From Spirosoma validum (GTDB taxonomy: Bacteria > Bacteroidota > Bacteroidia > Cytophagales > Spirosomataceae): a stretch of 64,000 bases of DNA. A program made the translations under genes and the position numbers. This document shows, piece by piece, positions 59,994 to 64,000 of the stretch. The notes under the pieces were generated by a model. It saw only the letters and a list, made by a program, of their open reading frames with translations. It was not told the DNA's origin and searched no databases. The DNA lies in assembly GCF_014699035.1 (NCBI RefSeq), contig NZ_JACXAA010000015.1, positions 1-64,000 of the forward strand, written 5' to 3'. Position 1 is the stretch's first letter, and every line of letters starts with the position of its first letter.

Positions 59994-60287
59994 ATGCTAA
60001 ACTTGGCATTCGATCTTGGCACAAGAAGACAACCTTTATTTAAACTAGGTATGTGGTATTTTCTTATCAAACAAAGTGCCCTCGAAACAGCGCAATATCA
60101 GACGTTACAAAAGCGGGCACTGCAGACGGAAGTTGAACTATTTAACGAGCCTTACGAAAACTGGTACATATTCACAGTAGAGAAAGATATTTATTCAGCC
60201 TTTATGGATTTGCTTGATTTACAAGGCATTTCATATGATTTAACCGCTGAACGACCTACGCGATCTGAGATGGTAACCAGAATGTAG
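59994..60287 (+). CDS. Small protein of unknown function (97 residues)
   Basis: The 97-residue frame has an ATG at 59994 and a second ATG at 60051 (MWYFLIKQSALETAQYQ) that is equally possible. The middle has NEPYENWYIFTVEKDIYSAFMDLLDLQGISYDL, with alternating strand and helix. The family is unknown. It ends 43 bp before a 28-bp hairpin that marks the convergent boundary with the sigma cassette. Confidence 0.5.
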   Translation: MLNLAFDLGTRRQPLFKLGMWYFLIKQSALETAQYQTLQKRALQTEVELFNEPYENWYIFTVEKDIYSAFMDLLDLQGISYDLTAERPTRSEMVTRM

Positions 60288-60329
60288 TAGCCCTATTTAC
60301 ATCTTTTCGTTAGAATAAATAGAAACCAG

Positions 60330-60395
60330 TATCCTCAATAACAGCAAACGCCCGTTTCGATTTAGTAAAACGGGCGTTTGCTGTTATTGAGGATA
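60330..60395. terminator. 28-bp perfect hairpin at the convergent boundary
   Basis: Left arm 60330-60357 and right arm 60368-60395 are exactly complementary over 28 bp with a 10-nt loop. It follows the small gene at 60287 and faces the minus-strand operon ending at 60738. It lacks a long U-tract on either side. Confidence 0.75.
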
Positions 60396-60737
60396 AATTG
60401 ATGATACAGATAGATCCAAGTTTCTACCTTGTTGATCTGGTTAATTTTGGAATGGATAGACGGTTAAAAATGATGTGGATAGAAGTAATCTAGTGAACCC
60501 ATTAACTCTCCTTGCGAACTTTAGTAGTATATTCCAGCTACCTGTGGATAGGTAACACTGTCTGGAAAAATATTTTTGATAATCTAGCAGAACACTTATT
60601 CATCAACCAGGAATGAACGTACAACGCTGCTAATTTTCCCAACCTCGATTAGCAGGCGTATCGCTCACATTTACATTCGTACCGGGAAATATAATGTAAC
60701 GTTTAAGCGGGGGTAGATGCTATGCCTGAATGTTTTA
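60396..60737. other. 342-bp gap without a supported gene
   Basis: Between the hairpin and the end of the sigma cassette I see no frame with coding character, no RNA gene and no clear terminator or promoter. The sequence is A+T rich. Confidence 0.5.
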
Positions 60738-61418
60738 TCAGCGTAACGGTACGATCTGGTTGACCGTCATACGTAGTGGAACCGGCAACTGGCCGGGCCT
60801 TATCAACTGATACGTATCTGCAGTCGGATCATACCGTACCTGCCATCCTTTAATTGTCTCCGTCTCTGGCTTTGGTAAATATAATCGAAGCGTATCAGCC
60901 ATAAAGGCGTAGTAAGACTGCCCCTCTTTTAGCGAATCAATCTTTTGTCGGGAGATCAACACAGGCATTAATCGATTAGGCGAATCGTCGTCACTACCAA
61001 AACCCAGCCCTTCCTCGCCGGTTTCTTCGTTATACACTGGCAATTCAGCGGCAATCGGTGGCTTATCGGTATTACGCTGATACACCCAGTATCCTAAAAA
61101 ACCAATTCCTATCAACACAAGGCCAAGCGCAGCCCGGCGAGCGAGTGGGTGATTCAGGACAATTAACCACCAGCCAGGTTGTGATTTAGTTTCTTCAGGA
61201 GGCTCTGGCATACTAACAGGCATTGGTTCGGCCGCAGCTATCCACAACTCCTCATCAGCTTCCTGGCGGGCTGTACTTGACAGGAGTTGATGTAACGCCA
61301 GCTGATCGGCAAAATCAGGGTCATTTTCCAGCAAGTTCATATATTGCTGGTATTCGTCGGCGGTTAGCGTTCCCTGCTCCCGTTTTTCAATAAGTTCCTG
61401 TCGTTGCTCGTCCGTCAT
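60738..61418 (-). CDS. Anti-sigma-like single-pass membrane protein (second copy)
   Basis: The 226-residue protein has a helical cytosolic N-terminus (MTDEQRQELIEKREQGTLTA, LLENDPDFADQLALHQLL), one membrane helix (RRAALGLVLIGIGFLGYWVY) and a periplasmic part rich in acidic residues. The DPDF segment resembles that of the protein at 62548-63228 and of Bacteroidota anti-sigma factors. Its ATG at 61418 overlaps the preceding stop by 4 nt (ATGA), so I prefer it to the longer frame from 61451. It is probably the partner of the sigma-like protein encoded just upstream; this is an inference. Confidence 0.62.
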   Translation of the reverse strand: MTDEQRQELIEKREQGTLTADEYQQYMNLLENDPDFADQLALHQLLSSTARQEADEELWIAAAEPMPVSMPEPPEETKSQPGWWLIVLNHPLARRAALGLVLIGIGFLGYWVYQRNTDKPPIAAELPVYNEETGEEGLGFGSDDDSPNRLMPVLISRQKIDSLKEGQSYYAFMADTLRLYLPKPETETIKGWQVRYDPTADTYQLIRPGQLPVPLRMTVNQIVPLR

Positions 61419-62557
61419 CGGGGTGAAAAAATCAGGTGCTGCCGACGACATTCATCAGCAACATAAGTTCTTAACGTTTCCAGGCAACGTCGGATTAATC
61501 CTTCAACTACTTTCACACCTTTATCAAGATCAGCCGCAATTTCACTGGCTGGTAGGGGCCGAAGATAATCGTTGTTATATCGGCTGTCGATCACTTCCTT
61601 ACAGTCGGGCTTCAACTGCTGCTTGCAAGACACCAGGACTTCCTTTAACTGTTCATCGTTGTCATGCACAGCTAATATGGGAATTTCGTCGGGCGAGACA
61701 TCCCCAGCCAGTTGATTTTTGATAGCATGCCATACTAAGCGGCCTCTGTTAACGAACCCAAGTAAATAGGTGCTTAACAAGGAATCCAGAAAAAACGAAT
61801 CCTTACCTGTTTTTGTCGTATTGAGCTTTCTAAGAAAATCCTCCCGAACCTCGGCCATAATATCCTTACTAAGATCGTCTGCCTCCATAATCTGAAGCCC
61901 CTGCAATTGTTTTCGGGCATATAGCCTGACTTTTAAGCAAGGCTCATTTAAAAAAGCACCTGCCTGCCGATCAAGAAATTGATAGACGTATAAGCCAATC
62001 TGATCGTGCAGGTAGTCGAACACAAGTTTTTTCTCCAGACAAACTCGCTCTTTATGGAAGACAAACATCGGACTTCTTACCCGGGCATCGTCCTGAATCA
62101 CGCTGTGCACAATCGCTCGTAACGTGCGCTCGGCTATCCGCAGCTGATCCTCTCGGCTTAGTTTAGATAACAAAGGTTTAAGATACGAATCGCCCGGTTG
62201 TTGAGCAAGTTGATCCATCCAGACCACTACGTCCATGCGTCGATTTTCGTCCCAGCGTTCGATTGCGTCGGGCGCTTGTGCGCGCATCTGTATCTTCCAG
62301 CCAGCTGCTTTTATAACATCCCGTAAAACAGAATCGAATGCTGTTGCGAAAAACGCTCGCTCATCGGGTTGCAGTTGACGTAGCACGCTTCCCAGCTCCT
62401 GTATAACTACCTGACGTAGCATAGGCGACTGTGATTTGTAGTGAGTCAGATTCTGATCGAGTGTTCGCCCAATAAACTCATTTACCCGTTGACCAAATGC
62501 TAATTCGATTGGACGTCTGGCTGCCTCAACAAGCTGATCAATAACCTTTATGTCCAT
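61415..62557 (-). CDS. Long protein with a C-terminal ECF sigma-like half
   Basis: The 380-residue protein (383 from the alternative ATG at 62566) has a helical N-terminal half of unknown type. Its C-terminal half follows the ECF sigma order: DDLSKDIMAEVREDFLRKL parallels sigma region 2, FFLDSLLSTYLLGFVNRGRL the end of that domain, and LKPDCKEVIDSRYNNDYLRP with EIAADL and RRCLETLRTYV parallels region 4. The true sigma factor of this operon has CQDILTAFYFDKKTMQEIADDF and RCIQALKKLV at the same places. It may bind DNA or the anti-sigma, with or without sigma activity. It overlaps both neighbours. Confidence 0.6.
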   Translation of the reverse strand: MDIKVIDQLVEAARRPIELAFGQRVNEFIGRTLDQNLTHYKSQSPMLRQVVIQELGSVLRQLQPDERAFFATAFDSVLRDVIKAAGWKIQMRAQAPDAIERWDENRRMDVVVWMDQLAQQPGDSYLKPLLSKLSREDQLRIAERTLRAIVHSVIQDDARVRSPMFVFHKERVCLEKKLVFDYLHDQIGLYVYQFLDRQAGAFLNEPCLKVRLYARKQLQGLQIMEADDLSKDIMAEVREDFLRKLNTTKTGKDSFFLDSLLSTYLLGFVNRGRLVWHAIKNQLAGDVSPDEIPILAVHDNDEQLKEVLVSCKQQLKPDCKEVIDSRYNNDYLRPLPASEIAADLDKGVKVVEGLIRRCLETLRTYVADECRRQHLIFSPR

Positions 62558-63228
62558 TGTGCCCATTTAATTTGCCACCAGAGCTTCCAGCGGTTTACTA
62601 AACCAATCCGGTACTCACAATCAATGCAGTGGGCATACTGGTCATAAATACGATTGGCTTTGTCAGGCTGACCACTTTTCAGATAGGCTACCGCCAGATG
62701 CCACTGGACTGCTTCCCGAAAATAAGGTCGAATGTCGGTTACGTGTACGATCTGCTCAAAGCTTTTTACGGCTAAGGCGTACTGACCGTCAACCAGGTGC
62801 ATCTGGCCTTCAAAAAACTGTTCAAAGATGCGTTTTTGGGCTACGACTACGCTATCATCACTTAGACTGCGTGTTACGCTGAAATCGTTTTCTGAATCCG
62901 GGAATGAGACAGGTGTAAAGGATAAGTAGGCGATAAAGAGTACACAAACCGTAGCAAAGCTTACCATTGACCGACGTACTAAGCGGATACGATGCGTTTG
63001 GTATTTAGCTTGATGCTGAAGCTGTTTTATCCGGCCAATGGCCCGCTGTTGTAAGAAAGCTTCGTGCATGATCTCGTGCGTTCGTTTAAGTGACGTTACT
63101 TCCTCCCGAAAATCAGGATCAGCGTTCATCTCAGCCTCAACAGATGTGCGTTCATCTGCTGGCATCTGATCGTTGAGATAGCGCTCAATCCAATCCTGTT
63201 CGTCTAGTTTATCAGCTGGTCTCTTCAT
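62548..63228 (-). CDS. Membrane protein with anti-sigma-like N-terminus and periplasmic TPR
   Basis: The 226-residue protein has a cytosolic helical N-terminus (DWIERYLNDQMPADERTSVE, NADPDFREEVTSL) like Bacteroidota anti-sigma factors. A membrane helix (VSFATVCVLFIAYLSF) and TPR-like helices (DGQYALAVKSFEQIV, AVAYLKSGQPDKANRIYDQY) follow. The ATG at 63228 overlaps the sigma stop by 4 nt, so I prefer it to 63264. Likely role: hold the sigma factor at the membrane and sense something in the periplasm through the TPR. Confidence 0.7.
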   Translation of the reverse strand: MKRPADKLDEQDWIERYLNDQMPADERTSVEAEMNADPDFREEVTSLKRTHEIMHEAFLQQRAIGRIKQLQHQAKYQTHRIRLVRRSMVSFATVCVLFIAYLSFTPVSFPDSENDFSVTRSLSDDSVVVAQKRIFEQFFEGQMHLVDGQYALAVKSFEQIVHVTDIRPYFREAVQWHLAVAYLKSGQPDKANRIYDQYAHCIDCEYRIGLVNRWKLWWQIKWAQWT

Positions 63229-63797
63229 GGTGTTGTCACTAATTTCTTCAATGCCTGTATGCAACGATATTTCCTGGTCTTCGCATTGTCGGCAGTGCCC
63301 AGATTAAAGTCGTCGGCAATTTCCTGCATTGTCTTTTTGTCAAAATAAAAGGCGGTCAGTATATCCTGGCAGGTTTTGCCGAGTTTGCCGAACAGGGCCC
63401 AGGCAGACCGAAGCTCATCTTCATCGATCAACACCTCTTCCGGACTGCGGTCATTCAGCAGTTGATTGCGGCTGTATTTCTCATGGCGCTGATTAACCGC
63501 ATTACGTTTAGTCCACTCCTTAAGCCAGAGATTACTGGCAATGCCGTAGATGTACGTCGTCACTTTAGCGTCGTGATGAACCTGATACTTACTTGTCCAG
63601 ACATTCTGAAGAAAGGCAAGGATCGTTTCCTGGAATAAATCATTGGCGTCGTCTTCGCTTCCCCCTTTTCGGGTAACCAGATTCGTGATATTTCGCTGGC
63701 ACTGTTCATAAAGGTACGTAACGATGTCTTCTGTGATCGCAACCTGCTTACTCTGCAAACCATCAACAATCTGCTGATCAGTAAAGGATTTCTTCAT
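63225..63797 (-). CDS. ECF-type RNA polymerase sigma factor
   Basis: The 190-residue protein has sigma region 2 (EDDANDLFQETILAFLQNVW, then TTYIYGIASNLWLKEW) and region 4 (CQDILTAFYFDKKTMQEIADDF, KTRKYRCIQALKKLV). The length is standard for ECF sigma factors. It is the first gene of the four-gene minus-strand operon and is coupled to its anti-sigma-like partner by an ATGA overlap. The start at 63797 is the first ATG and gives a usual N-terminus. A divergent gene appears to start at 63960. Confidence 0.9.
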   Translation of the reverse strand: MKKSFTDQQIVDGLQSKQVAITEDIVTYLYEQCQRNITNLVTRKGGSEDDANDLFQETILAFLQNVWTSKYQVHHDAKVTTYIYGIASNLWLKEWTKRNAVNQRHEKYSRNQLLNDRSPEEVLIDEDELRSAWALFGKLGKTCQDILTAFYFDKKTMQEIADDFNLGTADNAKTRKYRCIQALKKLVTTP

Positions 63798-63959
63798 GCA
63801 TTTGGGAGGAAGTTATTTGCCTTATATACCACCTGAAGAGGGAGAGGTAACAGCCGAAAAAAAAGTCACTATTTTTTTAAAGAGAACCGCGGGAAATCAA
63901 AAAAACGACGCGTGGAACAGTGAGTTCGGACGAACCGGATTCATTAAACCTCCTATGCT

Positions 63960-64000
63960 ATGCGTTTATCAGTCAAAAACACCCTGATTCTTGGTGCCAT
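63960..64000 (+). CDS. Probable start of a divergent gene (partial)
   Basis: An ATG at 63960 opens a frame reading MRLSVKNTLILGA to the window edge, with a hydrophobic start suggestive of a signal peptide. It is divergent from the sigma gene with 162 bp between. Too little is present to assign a function. Confidence 0.35.
   Translation, partial: MRLSVKNTLILGA

Follow-up and report, generated by a model that had tools for sequence, protein, structure and literature searches.

Cleavage of the inhibitor of an extracytoplasmic function (ECF) sigma factor has been described for the tetratricopeptide repeat (TPR)–CHAT protein Csx29, which cleaves Csx30, the inhibitor of CASP-sigma (PMC10028731), and comparably for the CalpL/CalpT/CalpS system, in which the Lon-SAVED protease CalpL, activated by cyclic tetraadenylate (cA4), acts with an anti-sigma factor and an ECF sigma factor (PMC11417357). 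In the EcfG system the response regulator PhyR titrates NepR, and the extensions described for non-canonical ECFs are C-terminal, or N-terminal with transmembrane (TM) helices and DUF2275 (ECF36) (PMC8999054). In Bacteroidota, a recognized class I anti-sigma factor lies near only 6% of ECFs (PMC7406223). The subject of this report is a set of four genes, P1–P4, in Spirosoma validum (genome of 8.2 Mb), which appear to encode two sigma/anti-sigma pairs, the second with an enlarged sigma-like protein. They lie in the window, the 64,000-nucleotide stretch analysed here, which corresponds to positions 1–64000 of contig C6.

The locus resembles systems of the RpoE/RseA type in its adjacent overlapping pairs (P1/P2 and P3/P4), in the sigma2- and sigma4-like parts of P3 and in the build of P2 and P4, where a hydrophobic segment separates a small N-terminal part from a C-terminal one; it differs in having two overlap-joined pairs, a P3 of about twice the usual length and anti-sigma N-termini that fall under the family cut-offs. 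The locus also resembles the type III-E Craspase/CASP system, in that the gene for a TPR-CHAT protease accompanies those for an ECF sigma factor and its inhibitor, but here each end of the CHAT protein carries a hydrophobic segment, the inhibitors are predicted to be membrane proteins and there are two sigma pairs. Moreover, nine neighbouring proteins and P3 gave no PADLOC match at E ≤ 0.01, and no CRISPR-like array was found in 20 kb around the locus, where the sole repeat is a three-copy imperfect one within a coding region; P1 scores 26.1 bits against the III-E sigma model, under its 100-bit cut-off. The locus therefore does not qualify as a type III-E Craspase, which would combine Cas7-11, a CRISPR array and Csx30 with the TPR-CHAT protein. 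The CalpL/CalpT/CalpS system likewise unites a dedicated protease, an anti-sigma factor and an ECF sigma factor, but its protease is of the Lon-SAVED kind and neither a CHAT protein nor a second pair figures in the description cited. As in PhyR/NepR/EcfG, a multidomain protein with a sigma-like part stands beside an ECF sigma factor and an anti-sigma factor; unlike the response regulator PhyR, P3 has no receiver match and has an anti-sigma relative of its own next to it. P3 also shares with the non-canonical ECFs an additional part on an ECF core, but its extension is N-terminal and helical, with no TM segment in a hydrophobicity scan, and a separate anti-sigma relative is retained, in contrast to the forms described in PMC8999054. 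Taken singly, the components are all of familiar types. No publication on this locus, or on the joint presence of two pairs, a second sigma factor of enlarged size, a TPR-CHAT protein, an apparently dead matrixin and a zincin, was found by title in the literature searched, most subscription journals being outside the scope of that search.

The most likely role of the locus is that of an envelope switch with two sigma factors, opened by putative proteolysis of the anti-sigma factors. The four genes, presumably expressed as a single transcript, would make up that half of an envelope-signalling locus which acts in the cytoplasm and the membrane. P1 would be a working ECF sigma factor held by P2, and P3, derived from an ECF (sigma2 and sigma4) with a gained helical N-terminal domain, would be held by P4. 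On a signal, the TPR-CHAT protease and, in relatives, a secreted zincin would cleave the periplasmic portions of P2, of P4 or of both. Freed P1 would transcribe its own operon and the flanking unit from TGTTAC-N18-NATAAA sites, and freed P3 would serve as a second sigma factor, to which the N-terminal domain would add a control input. This is the best explanation of the data, and for the scheme as a whole (both pairs, release by the CHAT protein, feedback by P1 and P3 as a second sigma factor) we judge the chances to be even.

Gene layout and conservation

The four genes are as follows.

63225..63797, minus strand: P1, ECF sigma factor, 190 residues (Pfam Sigma70_r2, 2.1e-9; TIGR02937, 2.7e-16)
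62548..63228, minus strand: P2, probable membrane anti-sigma factor, 226 residues (N-terminal anti-sigma stretch, hydrophobic segment at about residues 88–107, TPR-like C-terminus)
61415..62557, minus strand: P3, long sigma-like protein, 380 residues (family profile comparison, region 4 matches under cut-off, AlphaFold2, Foldseek)
60738..61418, minus strand: P4, second anti-sigma-like protein, 226 residues (hhalign of P4 against the P2 family; hydrophobic segment at about residues 96–112)

The gene calls confirm the four overlapping minus-strand genes described in the initial annotation, and the recurrence of the order P1–P2–P3–P4 in ten other genomes speaks against chance. The ATGA stop–start overlaps that it placed at P1/P2 and P3/P4 agree with the gene coordinates, the P2 and P3 genes overlap by ten bases, and the DPDF stretch is indeed present in both membrane proteins, P2 and P4.

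A search of 222 genomes of the family with P3 gave matches in 13 (E ≤ 0.001); the long protein occurs in 11 of them, including S. validum, and the other two (G117 and G119) have a plain 200-residue ECF. The order matrixin-like gene, CHAT gene, P1, P2, P3, P4 is kept in all 11 loci (the matrixin-like gene is cut by the contig end in L032). Named carriers are S. telluris, S. spitsbergense, S. endophyticum, Fibrisoma limi, F. montanum, Dyadobacter sp. SG02 and a Runella metagenome-assembled genome. A spurious open reading frame (ORF) was ruled out for P3 by the presence of the long protein in 11 genomes and by ratios of nonsynonymous to synonymous substitution rates (dN/dS) of 0.143 and 0.179 in two close pairs of relatives, which indicate purifying selection (four pairs were run in all; dS of P3 was saturated in one of the others, and the last was run without P3).

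P3 of S. telluris (L026 and L038) is split into two ORFs that occupy different frames, the break falling close to where the N-terminal domain gives way to the sigma-like one. The P1 ORF of this species is short (158 residues), with the usual start in another frame; decay or a sequencing error may be the cause.

Evidence for a sigma origin of P3 in its C-terminal half

Three parts can be distinguished in P3.

62072..62557, minus strand: N-terminal helical domain, residues 1–162 (AlphaFold2, predicted local distance difference test score (pLDDT) of 82.4 and predicted template modelling score (pTM) of 0.72 when modelled alone)
61712..62032, minus strand: sigma2-like helices, residues 176–282 (AlphaFold2; hhalign alignment with the P1 family, starting at residue 227)
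61442..61660, minus strand: sigma4-like helices, residues 300–372 (Pfam Sigma70_r4 at 6.9e-4, under cut-off; hhalign; AlphaFold2)

The initial annotation had called the C-terminal half of P3 sigma-like and proposed a profile–profile comparison as the check. When the P3 family (the ten long proteins other than the split one of S. telluris) was compared with the P1 family (11 relatives) using hhalign, the two profiles aligned with a probability of 96.2 and an E value of 2.3e-9, residues 227–367 of P3 lying on residues 48–188 of P1; three other family pairs, run as a control, each gave a probability of 0.3. The P3-family profile also has matches in 228 of the 390 genomes of the order (E ≤ 0.001, set for one genome). 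Among the matches listed, all except four long proteins begin at model position 188 or beyond (best E value of 1.7e-10), most span about 230–390, some are confined to the final third, and the open frames have the size of ECFs. All nine matched stretches that were scanned with Pfam (eight chosen among the 26 best ECF-sized order-wide loci and one from the family-level search with P3) match sigma region 2 and/or region 4. Within P3 itself region 4 is recognized both by Pfam (Sigma70_r4) and by TIGR02937 (5e-5), both under cut-off. A search of PDB sequences with the P3 profile gave seven rows, with RpoH best at 0.01 and SigK at 0.36, and a scan of the genome contigs with P3 alone as the query gave no result.

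The AlphaFold2 model of P3 (from nine rows; pLDDT of 80.5, pTM of 0.66) consists of helices to residue 161, a hairpin at 165–174, helices at 176–282, a low-confidence stretch at 282–299 and helices at 300–372. Foldseek returned 266 PDB matches at E ≤ 10 (best E value of 0.019), and the 50 of them that were listed are all RNA polymerase or sigma/anti-sigma entries. The chains were taken as sigma factors from chain letter and length, and ECF rows have probabilities of 0.91–1.00. Together with the profile comparisons, the model and the Foldseek matches bear out the initial annotation, and descent of this C-terminal half from a sigma factor is well supported, more firmly for region 4 than for region 2. 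The DUF445 match (0.046) and other weak Pfam matches were rejected as the identity of P3, each occurring in one of the ten members. The N-terminal domain has no recognized relative in the PDB by Foldseek (no match at E ≤ 0.001; best E value of 1.7).

Several results weigh against P3 being a sigma factor in structure or in function. None of the 266 Foldseek matches reaches E ≤ 0.001, and among the matches listed the TM-scores by query are 0.14–0.20, with root-mean-square deviations of at least 10.8. At E ≤ 0.1 Pfam detects region 4 alone in the ten members of the P3 family (Sigma70_r4 in four, Sigma70_r4_2 in two) and gives no match to region 2. P3 also diverges faster than P1: over the same ten loci the mean pairwise identity is 59.5% for P2, 48.6% for P1, 37.4% for P4 and 32.7% for P3. 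The Gln of sigma2.2 is altered in eight of 11 P3 members, as read from alignments, and so is the acidic residue that follows it, which 45 of 49 ECFs of the S. validum genome retain. No promoter motif belonging to P3 itself was found.

The detection of region 4 alone would fit a DNA-binding regulator with nothing but a sigma4-like helix–turn–helix, the central helices of which would be unrelated to sigma2. However, the hhalign alignment and many of the order-wide matches extend across region 2.2–2.4 (from about residue 227 of P3) into region 4, and in the model the linker is preceded by a group of helices (176–282), so that we consider this reading very improbable. The faster divergence of the second pair than of the first, the two altered sigma2.2 residues, the extra N-terminal domain and the position of the sole conserved promoter-like motif found, which sits before P1 and at the locus flank, would fit a different alternative, namely that P3 is a sigma mimic. 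By analogy with PhyR, its sigma fold would bind an anti-sigma factor (P4 or P2) and, once signalled through the N-terminal domain, would titrate it off P1. On the other side, sigma4 is the best recognized part of P3, no PhyR_sigma-like or receiver match was found in the ten members at E ≤ 0.1, and in one further locus (L089) the P4 relative comes after an ECF of ordinary length. The sigma2.2 Gln is retained in three of the 11 members, and its loss is weakened as proof that P3 is no sigma factor because 21 of the 49 ECFs of the genome also lack it. A mimic is unlikely in our assessment, if a serious candidate, and a role for P3 as a second sigma factor is the reading that we prefer.

P1, P2 and P4

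P1 was rightly described as a standard ECF sigma factor: it scores 37.4 bits against PF04542 (cut-off of 24) and 59.6 bits against TIGR02937 (cut-off of 42.9), with region 4 at 14.2 bits in Pfam, under the cut-off of 24.1. The whole S. validum genome has 57 Sigma70_r2 matches.

For P2, which the initial annotation took to be an anti-sigma-like membrane protein with a TPR part, the hydrophobicity scan finds a hydrophobic segment; the N-terminal NCBIfam antisigma match (8.2e-6) and all of the Pfam TPR matches, which indicate a weak TPR, are under cut-off. P4 was given the same anti-sigma-like character, and here the profile comparison supports it, since the P4 family aligns with the P2 family over 89 N-terminal columns (hhalign probability of 87.4, E value of 3.7e-6). 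P4 has chance-level matches only in Pfam (best 0.17) and none in NCBIfam at E ≤ 10. Its hydrophobic segment (residues 96–112) scores 2.07 with a 17-residue window and is missed by a 19-residue scan at 1.6; in ten P4 rows the best 17-residue window lies inside residues 81–115, at 1.88–3.12. In the proposed scheme P4 would be a membrane protein that binds P3.

Five loci with further matches to the P4 profile (L154–L158) were fetched. An ECF gene directly precedes the P4-profile match in L156 and L158, and in L157 no ORF with such a match was found. Two of the five weigh against the proposed scheme: the anti-sigma factor of L156 is equally close to the P2 and P4 families, and the P4 relative of L155 has no called ECF gene next to it. 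Locus L154 (genome G166) has the matrixin-like gene, the CHAT gene, a P4 relative and the zincin gene without P1, P2 and P3, a remnant that resembles an internal loss.

Related loci and the origin of the second sigma factor

The P2 profile matched 59 of the 222 family genomes, 48 of them without a long P3, and 20 of these 48 were taken as further loci (one per genome, mostly the best-scoring). The CHAT gene adjoins the P2 relative in 18 of the 20 and is convergent with it in all 18; it is therefore not co-transcribed with it, and the association suggests a functional partner.

A P4 relative is present in seven of the 20 further loci, each time preceded by an ORF, of 211, 235, 237, 307, 323, 339 or 340 residues. 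These P4 relatives match the P4 family over the full length (probability of 99.4), and a HExxH ORF adjoins each of the seven, with homology to the zincin family seen only in L080. The preceding ORF is sigma-like in six of the seven loci and has ordinary ECF length in one, the 211-residue protein of L089, whose Pfam matches to region 4 (1.3e-5 and 2.7e-5) and region 2 (1.1e-3) are just or somewhat under cut-off. The 235- and 237-residue proteins have weak Sigma70_ECF matches (0.0032 and 0.013, under cut-off). The 307-, 323- and 340-residue proteins have no Pfam sigma match, and their profile aligns with the P1 family at a probability of 95 and with the P3 family at 64; the 339-residue protein of L080 has no sigma match. 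Since the P4 relatives follow proteins of 211–340 residues that are mostly sigma-like, the second sigma factor is probably an ECF that diverged and became enlarged. A second pair with a HExxH protein can accompany the CHAT module, and P3 is one form of a graded second sigma factor. Beside related anti-sigma factors there is thus a series from an ordinary ECF of 211 residues to proteins of 235–424 residues that are barely recognizable as sigma factors, which raises the testable question of when a sigma factor ceases to be one and what follows.

The initial annotation had proposed a duplicated pair in which the second sigma factor diverged and gained a domain. The enlarged ECF agrees with the above, the ordinary-length ECF of L089 included; for P3/P4 as a possible copy of P1/P2, the scores point both ways. 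P1 ranks second of 49 S. validum ECFs by the P3-family profile, 0.2 bits below the first (scoring covered 48 of the genome's 56 other Sigma70_r2 matches, two of which gave no score), but its relatives in the other ten loci score 3.6–22.2 bits, like unrelated ECFs.

Four of the seven loci with a P4 relative (L086, L087, L093 and L094) contain a further, more distant CHAT protein of 978–1213 residues. A different second set stands by the CHAT module in L091 (842–7740): a P2-like protein, a 338-residue protein with region 4 matches, a second CHAT protein of 1015 residues and a 685-residue protein. The last has GHG and DSCHSG motifs, read by eye, and is presumably metacaspase-like.

The CHAT protein and other neighbours

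Two conserved genes lie upstream of P1, outside the window.

Contig C6 64538–67360, minus strand: TPR-CHAT protein, 940 residues, 740 bp upstream of P1 (PF12770 CHAT, 1.4e-53)
Contig C6 67396–68385, minus strand: matrixin-like protein, 329 residues, upstream of the CHAT gene (PF00413 Peptidase_M10, 6.5e-7)

A divergent gene had been expected beyond position 64000; what is found there is the co-directional TPR-CHAT gene. Residues H758 and C802 of the CHAT protein are invariant in all 11 loci, and we take them to be the CHAT protease dyad. The protein has a hydrophobic stretch at either end (a signal-like one at the N-terminus, an anchor at the C-terminus); judged from these stretches, it probably acts outside the cytoplasm, where the C-terminal parts of P2 and P4 would be exposed, and cleavage of the anti-sigma factors by it is what the proposed switch would require. 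TPR-CHAT (caspase-like) proteases, familiar from the release of sigma factors in CRISPR systems, would thereby also have a place in a CRISPR-free envelope setting in Bacteroidota. The matrixin-like protein lacks HExxH in S. validum and nine of nine aligned relatives (10/10), so the M10 zinc site is absent; this conserved dead protease is perhaps a sensor or binding part. A seventh gene, for a zincin of 466–504 residues, follows P4 in ten of the 11 loci, with HExxH and two further His residues invariant in all ten. It is missing next to P4 in S. validum (window positions 60287–60738), though the second promoter-like site stays; elsewhere in this genome the zincin has distant matches only (best 1.8e-6).

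The presence of CHAT, matrixin-like and zincin genes in and around the cassette allows the roles to be turned round, and against the proposed release step it must be said that the CHAT protein might just as well be one of the products that the regulon delivers. In the fuller form of this view, all three proteins would be outputs of the sigma operon, forming an extracellular or periplasmic response, and general site-1/site-2 proteases would cut the anti-sigma factors, which is compatible with either reading of P3. The lack of HExxH in the matrixin-like protein would fit such a role. The convergent CHAT gene beside 18 of the 20 further P2 relatives argues otherwise, as does the finding of no strict promoter-like site before the CHAT or matrixin-like gene in the 11 loci. 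We regard this fuller form as possible, on the unlikely side. A more doubtful proposal is that the locus stands for a kind of envelope switch not described before: a TPR-CHAT protease, tethered to the membrane outside the cytoplasm, governs both pairs at once and the second sigma factor, through the gain of the N-terminal domain and the alteration of core-binding residues, has become a mimic that tunes the first.

Promoter-like sites

Under the preferred scheme, with release of P1 and feedback on its own operon, conserved sites would be expected to be read by P1. The following elements were located.

63823..63852, minus strand: promoter-like site TGTTACNT-N16-NATAWA before P1, present in 11/11 loci (L032 has just a looser version)
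60528..60557, minus strand: second promoter-like site, 181 bp after P4, with a counterpart in 10/11 loci (eight strict and two loose)
60333..60392, minus strand: perfect 25-bp inverted repeat, terminator-like, downstream of the second promoter-like site

Upstream of P1 all 11 loci have GTTACNT (TGTTAC in ten, CGTTAC in one), with a NATA box, preceded by an A/T-rich tract, 18 bases past GTTAC (17 in one locus). The strict pattern has two matches in the window, compared with 0.04 in shuffles; the P1 site helped to define the pattern and the site after P4 did not. In the 11 loci (208,110 bases) it has 20 matches, of which ten lie before P1, nine after the last gene (in eight loci) and one elsewhere. 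With a loose pattern, L027 and L030 also show a flank copy, giving ten of 11 loci, and L034 has none. Of the 34 matches of the loose pattern in the 11 loci, 12 lie at neither place, which makes the two loose flank sites weaker. Genome-wide the pattern has 15 matches, compared with six for a reversed control, and in the 20 further loci the strict pattern has two, neither directly before the P1 relative; no larger regulon is therefore claimed. By eye, the A/T tract of the relatives is present only at the two locus sites among the genome-wide matches.

What lies downstream of the flank site varies and includes small ORFs and CsgG-like or PorP-like proteins (read from some translations). In S. validum the second site is followed by a 12-codon ORF (60464–60502, minus strand) and then by the perfect 25-bp inverted repeat, so that positions 60333–60557 of the minus strand possibly yield a short regulated transcript or small RNA. 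Fifteen bases of this stretch, TACTTCTATCCACAT, recur in F. limi and F. montanum at the corresponding position.

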